Source: a virus | Direction: 5' to 3' (one strand) | DNA: 64,000 nt | IMG/VR virus record: IMGVR_UViG_3300036828_000247 | Coordinates: 1-64,000 of that record | Shown here: positions 3,723-49,029 of the stretch, in pieces | How the letters are laid out: each line of letters starts with the position of its first letter | How positions within the stretch are numbered: the first letter of the stretch is position 1 | Made by a program: the position numbers and the translations under genes | The notes under the pieces: generated by a model | The model's database searches: none | What the model was told of the DNA's origin: nothing | What the model saw: only the letters and a program-made list of their open reading frames with translations

Positions 3723-4193
3723 CTATCCTCTCTTGTGAACATCCGCGATGCGGATCTGGTTGGTGGCGCAATCGTCCACCCAGTCTTCCGGACGCCTGTG
3801 AACCAGCGTCTCGGTCCCTCGGGGGTTGCCGCGCCAGTCCCCGCCATAGACGAGATAGAATGGCGGCCGGCCAACGGCAACGCGGTGCGTGCTCCGGACC
3901 GGCTCAAAGCAGGGGTTACCGGGGCCGTAGACGACCTTGATGATCTGCTCGCTGAGTCGCTGGATGGAGCTCTTCCTGGTCTTGTCGTGCCGGACGAACT
4001 CCAGCTGGCGCATCCCAAGCTCGGTTGTGGTGTCAATCGTCAGTACGAACCCATACAGGAAGTCGTCACACTCGTACTCCTCGCACGTGGCCGACCGCCA
4101 GTGCGTCCGGAGCGGAGCGCTGATCGTGTATGTCTTGTAGTGCTCCGGACCCACAGCCGGAATGATCCGGCGGAGCTCGGGGGTGATATCCAT
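3723..4193 (-). CDS. Conserved tail-region protein, function unknown
   Basis: 156 residues. Its ATG overlaps the stop of the upstream tube gene (TGATG), so translation is probably coupled. It contains CEEYECDDFLYGFVLTIDT, FVRHDKTRKSS and PPFYLVYGGDWRGNPRG. There is no membrane segment. Genes at this position often encode small tail proteins, but no domain is recognisable here. Confidence 0.65.
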   Translation of the reverse strand: MDITPELRRIIPAVGPEHYKTYTISAPLRTHWRSATCEEYECDDFLYGFVLTIDTTTELGMRQLEFVRHDKTRKSSIQRLSEQIIKVVYGPGNPCFEPVRSTHRVAVGRPPFYLVYGGDWRGNPRGTETLVHRRPEDWVDDCATNQIRIADVHKRG

Positions 4194-5140
4194 CAGAACA
4201 CCTGCCCTGCGATTGGATTCTGGACGAGGGCCACGGCAAATACTGCCTGCGTGAACGTCCCGGCCGTTACGACCTTGACGAACTCGTTGACTGTCGTGAC
4301 GTTTGATGTGGCTACCCGGTAGCCGTTGATGGCAGTCTGGCTCCCGAAGTCAAGCAGGGTCGTATACGTCCCGCCCGAGGTTGTGGCGTGCGTGATGGTC
4401 ACGTCGATGTTGGTGCCCACGAGCTCGATCAGCTGGAGATAGGCCTGCGCACCAAACGCGCTACCGGCCCCGAGGTCAACAAAGGCTCCGGTGGTTGCCC
4501 CGTTATCGGTCCGGAGGCCCGGCGTGAGCGTCTTGCCCCACTCCATGCCGAAGGCGTTGGCCTCAATGTCAATCTTGACCGTGATGCCACCCTTGTTGTC
4601 CCGGGTCGGATCGTAGTTGTCCTGCTTAGCTACGCACATCGCAGCCGCGTTCCCGATAGCCGTGCCCCGGAAGTACATGGCCTGATCATCAGCCGTCGAT
4701 GGGTTGGCGAATGCCTGGTGCGCGACCCCGAGGGAGAACCAGTTCCAGGTCGGGGCCACCGTGTAGGTCAGGGTGATCGTCCCGAGCGGCGGGATGACGT
4801 AGGTGCCCGCTCCGGCTCCGACCGTTAGCCCGTTGATCGTCACGTTGCTCATCGTGCCGCCCGTGATGGTCACGGTGACCGGCTGATTAAACGTGCTCAC
4901 CACCGGGGTCCCCGAGGCAGGCACGCCCGGCGTGTTGACGGTCTGGATCGTCTCCAGCCAGGACGTGAAGCTCATCGAGGCATCTCGCGTTCCCCCGATC
5001 CTGGCGTTAGCGAACTGCTTGATCGGTGTGGTGTCCAGCAGAGCCGGGCCGCCGCTGATCTTGTCGACGCTCAAGATGGAACCAGAGACGTCAATCCCGC
5101 TGTAGTAGAGATTGTCACCGAGGCCGCTCTGCTTTGGCAT
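4193..5140 (-). CDS. Major tail tube protein candidate
   Basis: 315 residues from the ATG at 5140, which overlaps the previous stop (TAATG). A longer reading to 5158 is open but lacks support. The N-terminal third (SMSFTSWLETIQ) and C-terminal two-thirds (YDPTRDNKGGITVKIDIEAN, NAFGMEWGKTLTPG) are beta-rich. An inserted Thr/Gly-rich segment near residues 75-125 resembles an Ig-like or decoration domain. Its place two genes before the smaller tube-like gene and downstream of the connector genes fits a tail tube subunit. Confidence 0.65.
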   Translation of the reverse strand: MPKQSGLGDNLYYSGIDVSGSILSVDKISGGPALLDTTPIKQFANARIGGTRDASMSFTSWLETIQTVNTPGVPASGTPVVSTFNQPVTVTITGGTMSNVTINGLTVGAGAGTYVIPPLGTITLTYTVAPTWNWFSLGVAHQAFANPSTADDQAMYFRGTAIGNAAAMCVAKQDNYDPTRDNKGGITVKIDIEANAFGMEWGKTLTPGLRTDNGATTGAFVDLGAGSAFGAQAYLQLIELVGTNIDVTITHATTSGGTYTTLLDFGSQTAINGYRVATSNVTTVNEFVKVVTAGTFTQAVFAVALVQNPIAGQVF

Positions 5141-5610
5141 TACGCCACCTGCTCCCACATATCGTTCACGATCACCGGGACCGCAATGGTCATCACGCGA
5201 TGGATCCGCTTGTCTAGTTCTACATACCCGGCCTCGCCGAACAAGGAGGTCCCGTATGCCCCGAGGAGGTCCACGTTCCGGGTATCAGCGTCCCCGCCAA
5301 ACTCAAAGTCGCCGCTCAGGGCTCCGATGAAGTCGGTCGCTGCCGCCATGACCTTCGGGTCAATCTGGTCAAACGGCTGCTGCGCGAACGGTGTGTAGAT
5401 CCGGGCATCAAGCAAGACGAGGCCGGACGTGCTGGCGAGCCCACCGGCCCGGATCGGCTCGATGCGCTGCGTCCAGATGGAGCACACAAGGCCGTTCCCC
5501 GGAGCCCCCTTGGGCTCGTGGGTGTTAACCGAATCAAAGTGCCCGGTGCTCATGGCGTAGCTCACCACCCGGTCAAAGATCTCGTTGACAGCATCCTCGT
5601 CGAAGTTCAT
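5140..5610 (-). CDS. Tail terminator or tail completion protein candidate
   Basis: 156 residues, starting MNFDEDAVNEIFDRVVSYAM. It contains a PKGAPGNGL and SIWTQRIEPI region and then LLDARIYTPFAQQPFDQIDP, which fits small proteins that cap the tail before head joining. It lies between the connector-like genes and the tube gene and overlaps both neighbours by a few bases. The role is inferred from gene order and size. Confidence 0.6.
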   Translation of the reverse strand: MNFDEDAVNEIFDRVVSYAMSTGHFDSVNTHEPKGAPGNGLVCSIWTQRIEPIRAGGLASTSGLVLLDARIYTPFAQQPFDQIDPKVMAAATDFIGALSGDFEFGGDADTRNVDLLGAYGTSLFGEAGYVELDKRIHRVMTIAVPVIVNDMWEQVA

Positions 5611-21878: not shown

Positions 21879-22175
21879 CTACCAGCGGGTCACCCGGGTG
21901 AGCTCGCTGAGGTGGGGGAGGCCGGGGATGGCAAGAACCTCGGGCATGGTGCGGACGAACCAGATGGCCTGATTGCCTTCCTGCTGGTGGGTGACCTTGA
22001 ACTGCTTTCCGTCGAGCGGTCGCGCCGTGCATGAGTCGCTGCCCTTTCCTGAGGTCATGCGCATGTCGATTGCCTCGATGGCCCAGCCTGCGCCACTGGC
22101 CTTCATGCCTGCCTCTCTCGGGAGGTACACCACGCCGCGCCATGGGCGCTTCTGGCTCAGCCGTTTTGCTATCAC
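21879..22175 (-). CDS. Hypothetical protein, probably leaderless with GTG start
   Basis: 98 residues from GTG at 22175, which has TAGGCT exactly six bases upstream. An alternative ATG at 22109 has an AGAGAGG ribosome-binding site and would give 76 residues. Contains KQFKVTHQQEGNQAIWFVRT. First gene of the small minus-strand operon, read away from the large intergenic region. No domain recognised. Confidence 0.55.
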   Translation of the reverse strand: MIAKRLSQKRPWRGVVYLPREAGMKASGAGWAIEAIDMRMTSGKGSDSCTARPLDGKQFKVTHQQEGNQAIWFVRTMPEVLAIPGLPHLSELTRVTRW

Positions 22176-22181
22176 AACGTA

Positions 22182-22187
22182 AGCCTA
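22182..22187 (-). promoter_or_regulatory. -10 box of a leaderless promoter
   Basis: TAGGCT on the minus strand, six bases before the GTG at 22175. Confidence 0.45.
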
Positions 22188-22214
22188 TTTGCAATGCGAG
22201 GATGGTCTGACCTG

Positions 22215-22238
22215 CAATCCAGTGGAACTGCTGGATTG
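22215..22238. repeat. 8-bp stem hairpin
   Basis: CAATCCAG and CTGGATTG flank an 8-base loop. It lies 30 bases upstream of the -10 box for the gene at 22175 and could be an operator. Confidence 0.4.
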
Positions 22239-22426
22239 TGCGCTGGGGAGAGGTGGTACTGCATTCCAGGGGAACGCAGAAATTGAGCCCGGTGGAGAAC
22301 AGGTACGCAATCTGCATGCAGGCATTCTTCTGGACTTCTCGCGCACACAGCACTGCCACGGCAGTCCCTGGCCAGGCACTCCTGGCCACGGGGGCCTCCC
22401 CAGGCACTCCGGCACCACCCCCGGTG

Positions 22427-22459
22427 GGTACCGTCCCTCCGGCGAGGTACCGTCCCTCC
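22427..22459. repeat. 14-bp direct repeat GGTACCGTCCCTCC
   Basis: Two identical copies at 22427-22440 and 22446-22459, 19 bp apart start to start. Confidence 0.6.
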
Positions 22460-22680
22460 TGCCGACCTACCCGGTCGCGGGTCCTACCGGGTGCGTGAGC
22501 GGGCAGTGCCCGCACACTCAGCCCTAGCGCCATAGGCACCCACCCCACGGGGGTGGTAGCCAGGGTAACCCTCCTGCACCGAACCGCACACGCGCACCGG
22601 GACACACGTGCCAGTCCCGAGCCGGCGACCCATCTGGCCACTGTGGTTACTGCAGGTAACCATACCTTGCCCATGGGTGG

Positions 22681-22732
22681 TAACTGTGCGTAATGCACAG
22701 CCACCGGGCGCTGTTAACTGTGCGTAATGCAC
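22681..22732. repeat. 18-bp direct repeat TAACTGTGCGTAATGCAC
   Basis: Identical copies at 22681-22698 and 22715-22732, 34 bp apart, at the edge of the AT-rich tract. Close by is a near-palindrome GGTTACTGCAGGTAACC. Confidence 0.65.
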
Positions 22733-23004
22733 CCCATTTCGGCCTTTGTTTCGGCCCCATTTACCCTTTACTCTGGGTAATGGCGACATATGCAGACAAT
22801 GCCGTTCCATCCCTTACCATTCACATAACAATGCATTGGCCTGAATGGTACAGAATAGGTCGGGATTTCGGTGGTAAAACACCTGGTTGCACCACATGTT
22901 TGCACGGAAAGGCGGCCATTTAAATGCATTGTTCGCCATTGTCTCAATGCATTTCCGAAAGTCGCGTTTTGTCGTCCGAATAGAGAAAATCGCTGTCTTT
23001 TACC

Positions 23005-23180
23005 TTACTTAGGGACCCCGCGCGAGCATCGCCATACCATGCTTACTTACCTTACTTACCTATATAACCTACTAAATAGGCTCTCCACCAGGCGAAAGGT
23101 CCTTTTTCTGTTATTTCACGACCCCACCTTAGTTAGGTAAGTTAGGTAACTAAGCATGGTATGGGCGAGCCCCTAAGTAA
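23005..23180. repeat. Iterated inverted repeat around an AT-rich spacer
   Basis: Outer arms TTACTTAGGG (23005-23014) and CCCTAAGTAA (23171-23180) are perfect complements. Inner arms CCATACCATGCTTA (about 23032-23045) and its complement (23151-23164) are also perfect. Next to them lie two CTTACTTAC units on the left and two GTTAGGTAA units on the right. The ~85-bp middle is AT-rich. Iterons flanking an unwinding-prone segment suggest an origin or a multi-site operator. Confidence 0.6.
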
Positions 23181-23459
23181 CCCCCTTACGGCCCCGTTTG
23201 CTCCGAGCCGAGTCACGTCCCCGCGACCCAGACGGATACCCCAGTTTACCCCACCACCCACACCCCAGTGCCCCACCCGGCCCACTGTAGGGCCGCATAA
23301 CCCCAGCCCCGGCCCACCGACCCCAGCCCGGCCGCGCTCGGGGCGAGCGCGCCGACCCCGATGGGCCATATGAACCCCCCAGTTAACGGCCGGCGAAACG
23401 GCCGACATTTACCCCAGGAAAGGCCGAGAGAAAGGCTAGCCATTCAGCAGGAGCGAGCG

Positions 23460-23465
23460 TAGACT
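23460..23465 (+). promoter_or_regulatory. -10 box of a leaderless promoter
   Basis: TAGACT, then AGGGGT (six bases), then the ATG at 23472. No ribosome-binding site before the start. Confidence 0.5.
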
Positions 23466-23471
23466 AGGGGT

Positions 23472-24855: not shown

Positions 24856-24906
24856 TTGAAAATAGTTCAGGGAAACGGGCGCAGCGCGCCTGCAGTACGG
24901 TACACT
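24856..24906 (+). promoter_or_regulatory. Cassette promoter c
   Basis: TTGAAAATAGTTCAGGGAAACGG, a 29-base gap, then TACACT (24901-24906). Nearly identical to promoter f (26999-27049). It is followed by a 168-base leader with no convincing gene (24907-25074), much longer than for the other cassettes, so it may carry RNA structure. Confidence 0.6.
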
Positions 24907-25074
24907 AAGGGCGTAGGCAAAACTGAACAGGGGCTGGGAGCGCGAACGTAGTCTGGCGACCCCCGATGAGTAGGATTTGGTTCCTGCCAGTAGGGTCCGG
25001 GTGAATCTGAACTTCAGTACCGACCAGCGTTAATCGTGCTCCCGGCCCCGGCTCCGACCAGCGAAAGGAATCTC

Positions 25075-25206
25075 ATGTTTTCCGACTCAGCGTTTGACCC
25101 GTTCGACGAGATGTACCAGGACGACGAGCCGCTGTCGCCACTTGACGCTGAGTATGAGGCGTCAGAATACGCGGACGAGGACGAGGACGAGGACGGCGAA
25201 AACTGA
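25075..25206 (+). CDS. 43-residue highly acidic protein
   Basis: ATG after AAAGGAATCTC. Product MFSDSAFDPFDEMYQDDEPL, ending ADEDEDEDGEN, with about one third Asp/Glu and no Arg or Lys. Its TGA overlaps the next ATG (TGATG). Small acidic phage proteins can mimic DNA and inhibit host DNA-binding proteins. That role is only a possibility here. Confidence 0.6.
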   Translation: MFSDSAFDPFDEMYQDDEPLSPLDAEYEASEYADEDEDEDGEN

Positions 25207-36977: not shown

Positions 36978-37295
36978 ATGAACTGGTCACCGCAGAACAT
37001 GACCGCTACCGGCCGCATCGTCTTCTGTGGCGGCACGGCACCGAGCAACTGCCCCGCGCTGCGGGTGCTCGACCGTGACGGCCACGTCGTGCCCGAGGAC
37101 GCCCCGCTGCCCGACGACCCCCGCATCGGCCTGTCCCTGGCCGGGGACGAGGGGCCGGCCACCGAGCTGGTCATGCCGCCGCACGAGATCGTGCAGCTCG
37201 TGTCCGCTTACGAGAAGGGCCTGACGCCGCAGCTGATGGCCGCCATCGGGATCGACATGCGCCGCCTGGAGCGCGGCGACTACAACGGCACGTAA
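36978..37295 (+). CDS. Hypothetical 105-residue protein
   Basis: ATG at 36978 with AGAGAGGTACGAA. MNWSPQNMTATGRIVFCGGT, then acidic loops and a helical end (PHEIVQLVSAYEKGLTPQLM). No signal. The family is not recognised. Confidence 0.55.
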   Translation: MNWSPQNMTATGRIVFCGGTAPSNCPALRVLDRDGHVVPEDAPLPDDPRIGLSLAGDEGPATELVMPPHEIVQLVSAYEKGLTPQLMAAIGIDMRRLERGDYNGT

Positions 37296-37349
37296 CTGAC
37301 CAGGCCTTATCCTGGGCTGCAAAAGTTCCTTACTGAAATCCCCAGAATG

Positions 37350-37380
37350 GGTAGCGCCAGCGTCCGGGGTAGGGTATACT
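37350..37380 (+). promoter_or_regulatory. Promoter GGTAGCGCC-16-TATACT
   Basis: GGTAGCGCC at 37350-37358, 16-base spacer, TATACT at 37375-37380. No gene follows for 600 bases, so it probably drives the structured RNA. Confidence 0.6.
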
Positions 37381-37385
37381 GGTAG

Positions 37386-37990
37386 TTGTAGGGCCGAGGG
37401 GGTGGGCTACCCCGGAAAACTGAATAGCGGTTAGGGGCCGGTAATCAGGGTCGGGCGTTAAATCCACTGGTTGCCCGGAGGCCGGTCCCGAGGGCGGTGG
37501 GTCGCCAGTGTTCCCCAAATCCGGGTTGCTCCCGGGCGGGTTCCGTTGCTGGTGCCAGGCGATTAGGTCGTGGCCCACCCTCCTCTCCCCCGTGACCGGG
37601 GTAGGTAGGAACCAGACGGAAAAGACCGTCATCATGGTAACGCCAGGCCTTAGAGGCTGGCGGTCCCCGCGAGGGGATTGGGACGCCCAGCTACGGCCCC
37701 GGTCATGTTTGGCTGGTTAGCTCAGGAGGAACGATGCCTCCTGCTACGCCAGGGTATCCGGGAGGACCCTGGGGCGCCAGTTCGTGGGGCTCCGTGTCTA
37801 GAATCGCAGGACGGTGCCGGCCGAGGCCGGGCAACGCTGATCTGGGCGCTACACGGAGCCCCACCCCCTAAGCTCCCGGCCCGGCAAATGTCCTGTCACA
37901 GGCTCTGCCGGTAACCGGGGTGGCTGGCGCCATCCTCAACGAGTACCCGCGTTAACTCCGGGGAAGGGCGAGGGTGGCGCCAGACTGCTA
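37386..37990 (+). ncRNA. Large structured noncoding RNA candidate
   Basis: About 600 bases without a credible ORF but with its own promoter and dense complementary segments. Pairings seen: CTACCCCGG (37407) with 37596-37604; GACGG/CCGTC (37615-37630); CGCCAG/CTGGCG (37641-37662); CCCC-GCGA-GGGG with a GNRA loop (37665-37676); CCAGGGT/ACCCTGG (37749-37772); a perfect 13-bp stem 37785-37797 with 37851-37863; and a 14-bp stem 37924-37937 with 37970-37983 (one G-U). Size and architecture recall ornate phage RNAs such as GOLLD or ROOL. I cannot assign a class. Confidence 0.55.
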
Positions 37991-38005
37991 TCCCAGGAGG
38001 AGCAG

Positions 38006-38251
38006 TTGAGCGAGAGCGAGTGGCGTGCGGTGCCTCCGGGCGGAGCCGAGATGGCCCGCCTGGAGATTCTGCATCAGCGCTCGGTACACTTCTGGCGCCT
38101 CGCCTACTCTGAGTGGCTGACTGTGGCTGTGGGCCTGGGGATGGGCATGTGGCCCGACGAGTCCGACGCCGAGCGAGCCACGGCCGCTATCCGCGTGGCC
38201 ATGCAGGCCCAGGACGACTGGTACGACGCCATCGGCGAGACCAGTCTCTAA
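38006..38251 (+). CDS. Hypothetical 81-residue protein
   Basis: TTG start with AGGAGGAGCAG in front. MSESEWRAVPPGGAEMARLE, LAYSEWLTVAVGLGMGMW (weakly hydrophobic), helical C-terminus. Directly follows the noncoding RNA candidate and might be co-transcribed. Confidence 0.55.
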   Translation: MSESEWRAVPPGGAEMARLEILHQRSVHFWRLAYSEWLTVAVGLGMGMWPDESDAERATAAIRVAMQAQDDWYDAIGETSL

Positions 38252-38255
38252 ACCG

Positions 38256-38287
38256 GGTAGCGCTTACGCCTAGGCGTAAGGTATAGT
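38256..38287 (+). promoter_or_regulatory. Promoter GGTAGCGCT-17-TATAGT
   Basis: GGTAGCGCT 38256-38264, TATAGT 38282-38287, then ACCGGGCGA at 38301 and GAGGAG before the GTG at 38323. Confidence 0.6.
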
Positions 38288-48859: not shown

Positions 48860-48933
48860 GGCGGAGTAGAGCAGCTCGGTAGCTCGGTTGGCTCATAACC
48901 AACAGGTCACTGGTTCAAATCCAGTCTCCGCCC
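48860..48933 (+). tRNA. tRNA-Met (CAT)
   Basis: Acceptor GGCGGAG pairs with CTCCGCC; D arm GAGC/GCTC; anticodon stem GTTGG/CCAAC with loop CTCATAA (anticodon CAT); T arm ACTGG-TTCAAAT-CCAGT. No CCA is encoded. It could also be an elongator Met or lysidine-modified Ile tRNA, since both have CAT. Confidence 0.92.
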
Positions 48934-49029
48934 CGAAGCCGCGTGCGCACAGGGGTGCCCGAGAGCGGCATGGATATGTGGGAATCAAAGCCTACCCGGG
49001 CACCCCACCCTAACTGGGCGAGAGGAACG

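Follow-up and report, generated by a model that had tools for sequence, protein, structure and literature searches.

A large structured noncoding RNA is located at positions 37386–37985 on the plus strand of the viral DNA studied here, as follows from its fold z-scores, from homologues found by blastn and from its noncoding status. Homologues in two other phage contigs, L002 (IMGVR_UViG_3300046535_001041) and L012 (IMGVR_UViG_3300036782_000031), preserve and covary its base pairs, the promoter in front of it is conserved and no protein is encoded. Judged from sequence by the Rfam membership test, it is a new family outside GOLLD, ROOL, OLE and HEARO, within the loose kind of “large structured phage RNA”, whose traits (no coding, a length above 500 nt, a conserved and covarying structure in phages) it displays. 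The first-pass annotation, which had suggested a large, ornate noncoding RNA and possibly a new class, was supported on both points, the former by covarying homologues without coding capacity, the latter also by the lack of Rfam matches for the RNA and its homologues in L002 and L012. The explanation we prefer, with slightly better than even chances and largely by analogy, is that this RNA acts in trans as a folded molecule, serving as a scaffold or sequestering particle.

The window, i.e. the whole stretch of DNA analysed, covers 64 kb out of a 67,960-bp virus record, and its genes include those of a Prim-Pol/AAA protein, a DUF2637 protein, an SNF2 helicase and a DUF6011 protein. Hosts of the helicase relatives are mainly those of Microbacterium, Gordonia and Mycobacterium phages, and together with gene content this indicates a phage of Actinomycetota, which is probably the host group for all three RNA-bearing phages. 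About 700 bases separate the 113-aa gene ending at 37295 from an 81-aa gene (38006–38251, plus strand), which lies directly 3′ of the RNA and has a counterpart with 52% identity at the same place in L002. For the 81-aa protein a helical hairpin is predicted (mean pLDDT 86), which says little on its function. Protein searches with the neighbouring genes 36954 and 38006 gave no match in IMG/VR, nor did the product of the latter match anything among isolated phages. Elsewhere in the window, a single tRNA-Met gene (48860–48934) is the sole Rfam match, and an ORF-poor intergenic region of 1.35 kb (22110–23470) contains a 36-nt inverted repeat (23032–23067 and 23129–23164, 89%) and GTAACTGTGCGTAATGCAC repeats; this region is a candidate origin, attachment or control region. 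A long ORF-poor stretch full of AACTGTAGGTA-like repeats, recalling those of the window at 22.6–22.7 kb, was also observed in a related phage contig (L010, 9620–10440).

L002 belongs to a close relative reached through the FtsK-like gene. Its copy of the 81-aa gene is preceded, in the same neighbourhood, by about 1,250 nt in which no credible ORF is seen. Two segments of the window were aligned with it by blastn: 37303–37598 with 4152–4484 (E 5e-24) and 37786–37914 with 5236–5357 (E 1e-11). The third copy, in L012 (blastn E 2e-12), matches the window with 91% identity in a 64-nt segment at the promoter and start and becomes similar again at the central motif. This 55-kb contig ends within the RNA gene (at L012 position 1), so that the 5′ 400 nt of the RNA are present, and the family accordingly rests on three members, one of them ended by a contig end. 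In L012 the RNA is placed after the FtsK-like gene and small genes and not before the DUF6011 gene; it is therefore not tied to a single upstream neighbour. Its length varies twofold, from 600 to 1,250 nt, through added folded pieces, as expected if an RNA core is surrounded by a variable periphery.

Folding of the plus strand exceeded that of dinucleotide shuffles (z −5.5 with 20 and −3.8 with 60 shuffles), while values from +0.8 to −2.6 were obtained for four control stretches from this phage, and the L002 homologue gave −5.1. The stems described by the first-pass annotation, namely a perfect one of 13 bp, one of 14 bp with a single U-G, a GNRA-capped hairpin and a long-range pairing of 9 bp, are all present. 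At the 5′ side the sequences themselves reveal the hairpin P1 (GGGGU/ACCCC, 37399–37413), the position of which is occupied by different hairpin sequences in L012 (GGGAGC/GCUCCC) and L002 (GGGUU..AACCC); these were compared by hand only, because MAFFT loses register here. It is followed by the conserved motif GNAAANCTGAANAGNGG (37414–37430), which has a second copy at 24917–24933 (two window matches at no more than one mismatch versus 0.05 expected) and was found also in L002 and L012. Further downstream the long-range covarying helix H1 joins 37490–37503 to 37572–37585, and helix H2, stacked on it with five pairs, joins GCCAG (37504–37508) to CUGGU (37549–37553), with one A-U pair becoming G-C in L002. 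The strands of H1 are free of gaps and form up to 15 pairs, with one C-C mismatch in the window; in five of the 15 pairs both bases have changed and still pair. For H1 and H2 together this applies to six of 20 pairs in the three homologues, a count and not a calibrated probability, as is that for the two sequences available at the 3′ side. Cells of the two helices are paired in 96.6% of cases versus 32–58% in controls with the partner slid by 1–3 columns (A7). Within this three-way junction lies the most conserved stretch, GCCAG with the hairpin GCGAUUMGGUCGU (37554–37571), which is nearly invariant and sits inside a 59-nt block 88% identical to L002; RNAalifold returned, besides this hairpin, a further inner helix with two-sided changes.

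The next domain (37593–37705, z −5.8) is multibranched and closed by the 9-bp long-range pairing of UGACCGGGG with CCCCGGUCA (37593–37601 with 37697–37705). It bears several hairpins, in one of which a GCGA loop of the GNRA type tops CCCC/GGGG (37664–37677), and L002 forms a domain (4477–4580, z −3.5) whose closing stem is related. The 3′ domain begins with hairpin S1 (37785–37863, z −4.3), composed of the perfect 13-bp stem (37785–37797 with 37851–37863) and conserved internal helices. Six of its 22 pairs show two-sided changes between the two homologues with 100% pairing, as compared with 38–50% in slid controls (A4); five of these changes fall in a 12-bp part, where all pairs are kept. Helix S2 (UCCCGG/CCGGGG, 37874–37879 with 37915–37920) retains pairing through one substitution of G-C by A-U in L002, and the terminal hairpin S3 (37924–37983, z −5.0) has 14 bp with one U-G (37924–37937 with 37970–37983). 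Behind S3 no U-run was found. We place the start of the RNA 6–8 nt past the −10 box and its end past this terminal hairpin, both ends being inferred.

A −35/−10 pair claimed for the region proved to be real, although it is not of the sigma-70 consensus, for which a scan of the region found no promoter; the pair corresponds to the phage's own promoter GTAGCG-N18-GGTATACT (37351–37380, plus strand), which reads into the RNA. It is one of six matches to the family GTAGC-N16-22-GGTAYAST in the window (23877, 24345, 37351, 38257, 43976 and 48345), where 0.03 were expected from shuffles. Four matches occur in L002, one of which (4199–4228) precedes the RNA at the equivalent site, and the −10 box GGTATACT is retained in L012. 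At the sequence level, therefore, the RNA has a promoter of its own, from which we infer rightward transcription. Neither a promoter nor a U-run terminator was found between the RNA and gene 38006 in the window and L002, and the next promoter of the family in the window, at 38257, is already 3′ of the 81-aa gene. Based on this, the RNA and the small gene may share one transcript in both phages.

Such an arrangement brings forward the main rival, which we consider possible and clearly less probable than a trans-acting RNA: the whole element may be a very long structured 5′ leader acting in cis, which controls gene 38006 or modifies RNA polymerase in the manner of the put RNA of phage HK022. This known phage cis element provides a precedent (PMC9378689). 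The 81-aa gene does follow directly in two phages without an intervening promoter or terminator, and in the window a 6-bp hairpin (37984–38006) carries the ribosome site of this gene in its loop; that hairpin, however, is not seen in L002, and 600–1,250 nt would be very long for the leader of an 81-aa gene. Furthermore, no copy of this gene was detected in the L012 record, which has the RNA, although it ends inside it. A leader role also gains from a second structured leader in the window (24905–25060, z −3.2, closed by a stem of about 16 bp), which has the same 5′ motif GNAAANCTGAANAGNGG and precedes another small ORF, a very acidic one of 43 aa (25076–25206). No homologue of this second leader was found in related contigs.

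Much less credible is that the RNA belongs to GOLLD, ROOL or another listed family so remotely that the Rfam models overlooked it. Size, phage location, elaborate folding and a conserved core with variable periphery would suit it; however, none of the three homologues has a credible Rfam match. Infernal searches, suggested earlier with GOLLD, ROOL, OLE and HEARO in mind, gave only chance-level matches for the RNA and its homologues in L002 and L012, both at the gathering threshold and, with permissive filters, up to E=10, and GOLLD and ROOL were absent altogether from the matches up to E=10. Hence the RNA is not recognisable as any of the four. The proposed “GOLLD and ROOL type” is supported only as an analogy, drawn from size, folding and the phage setting; no homology was found and there is no tRNA island: the association with tRNA genes, common in GOLLD though not strict, is not observed here, since the one tRNA-Met at 48860 is 10.9 kb away. 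Membership in ROOL also implies a highly abundant discrete transcript.

Searches for further members were made with covariance models of the central part (R1) and the 3′ domain (R2). Only the known homologues were returned by R1 from 92 loci, 40 whole viral records and about 790 actinobacterial genomes, the latter searched with stricter filters and without a positive control, and by R2 from the loci and nine records. Blastn of isolated phages and plasmids gave nothing credible; a match of the central motif in a Rhizobium plasmid was rejected, as it lies across the beginning of a dehydrogenase-like ORF and is devoid of the helix. Apart from L002's contig, the central-motif scan of IMG/VR hit one phage gene family, which was set aside. 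The 5′ motif was found among viral contigs in L002 and L012 only, and among bacterial and archaeal genomes in 68 stretches, one of which had a weak central-motif match (6 mismatches, 1.3 kb away) that was taken as chance. In the 3′-motif scan of IMG/VR, L002 alone fell outside a long reading frame. Thus neither the three motif scans of IMG/VR nor the one covering bacterial and archaeal genomes added a family member, and since few copies were found across all searches, the family is rare, evolves fast or has undersampled hosts.

That the region functions as DNA, as an origin of replication or a site of packaging or recombination whose inverted repeats form cruciforms, deserves equally little credence. 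This reading would account for the numerous inverted repeats and for fold z-scores raised on both strands: the complementary one gave −2.1 and −3.2 in the window and −5.1 in L002, as is usual with inverted repeats, and the strand is therefore not fixed by folding energy alone. It is indicated, however, by wobble pairs in H1 and H2, one of which, a U-G, is common to all three homologues (A7 column 16). Conserved G-U pairs are mismatches on the opposite strand and so make sense only in a plus-strand RNA. A dedicated conserved promoter reading into the region also argues against a DNA site, and the separate repeat-rich intergenic region at 22.1–23.5 kb looks more origin-like.

Protein coding does not explain the conservation either. 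Across the region, GC content is biased by codon position weakly or not at all, and all plus-strand frames are broken, in agreement with the original impression that a credible ORF is lacking. A minus-strand protein (37330–37635), open in the window and L002 with similar peptides, was rejected as practically negligible in probability, since in the third homologue, L012, its frame is frameshifted with four stops and since it would leave the compensatory pair changes unexplained. Because that frame is broken, the conserved protein frame regarded at the outset as fatal to an RNA gene, and looked for in all three homologues, is not present.

Action as a folded RNA fits the combination of a conserved core, a periphery that doubles in length, a dedicated promoter, the absence of coding and, in L012, a different neighbourhood. 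The phage's own promoter would drive rightward transcription of the RNA gene; its product would adopt a modular fold, consisting of the 5′ three-way junction with its almost invariant internal hairpin, the multibranch domain and the 3′ hairpin domain; and the folded RNA itself would work in trans, as a scaffold or a particle sequestering some binding partner, as has been proposed for ROOL and GOLLD. In a more far-reaching version, to which we give somewhat less than an even chance, it would represent a new giant phage RNA class unrelated to these two, forming a particle or sequestering host or phage factors and having at 24.9 kb a small companion transcript with the same 5′ recognition motif. 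Very few large structured phage RNAs are known, and another such family, independent of GOLLD and ROOL and built of a conserved core with variable periphery, would suggest repeated origin of such RNAs. Annotation would miss this one, because its relatives are all metagenomic and it is absent from Rfam; three sequences together with a promoter and a core motif are now available for testing the family.

Among known systems, OLE and HEARO are similar as large structured bacterial RNAs and differ in that the window RNA has no Rfam match to them. The put RNA of HK022 is far shorter than the window RNA. It is alike in being a structured RNA that begins a phage transcript, whereas put acts in cis and belongs to a lambdoid phage (PMC9378689). 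ROOL and GOLLD are phage-encoded RNAs of unknown function that form homo-oligomeric cages, the GOLLD nanocage being a 14-mer (PMC12286853). ROOL (PMC12286853, PMC5643018) shares with the window RNA its occurrence in phages or mobile elements, a length of 500–660 nt, an elaborate structure and the absence of an ORF, whereas the window RNA neither matches the Rfam model nor has a tRNA island nearby. From GOLLD it differs in having conserved blocks on the 5′ as well as the 3′ side, in lacking a tRNA within or next to it and in giving no Rfam match, and it resembles GOLLD as a phage RNA combining conserved and variable parts, with 600–1,250 nt here, while GOLLD has one conserved and one variable region and many members longer than 800 nt (PMC12286853).
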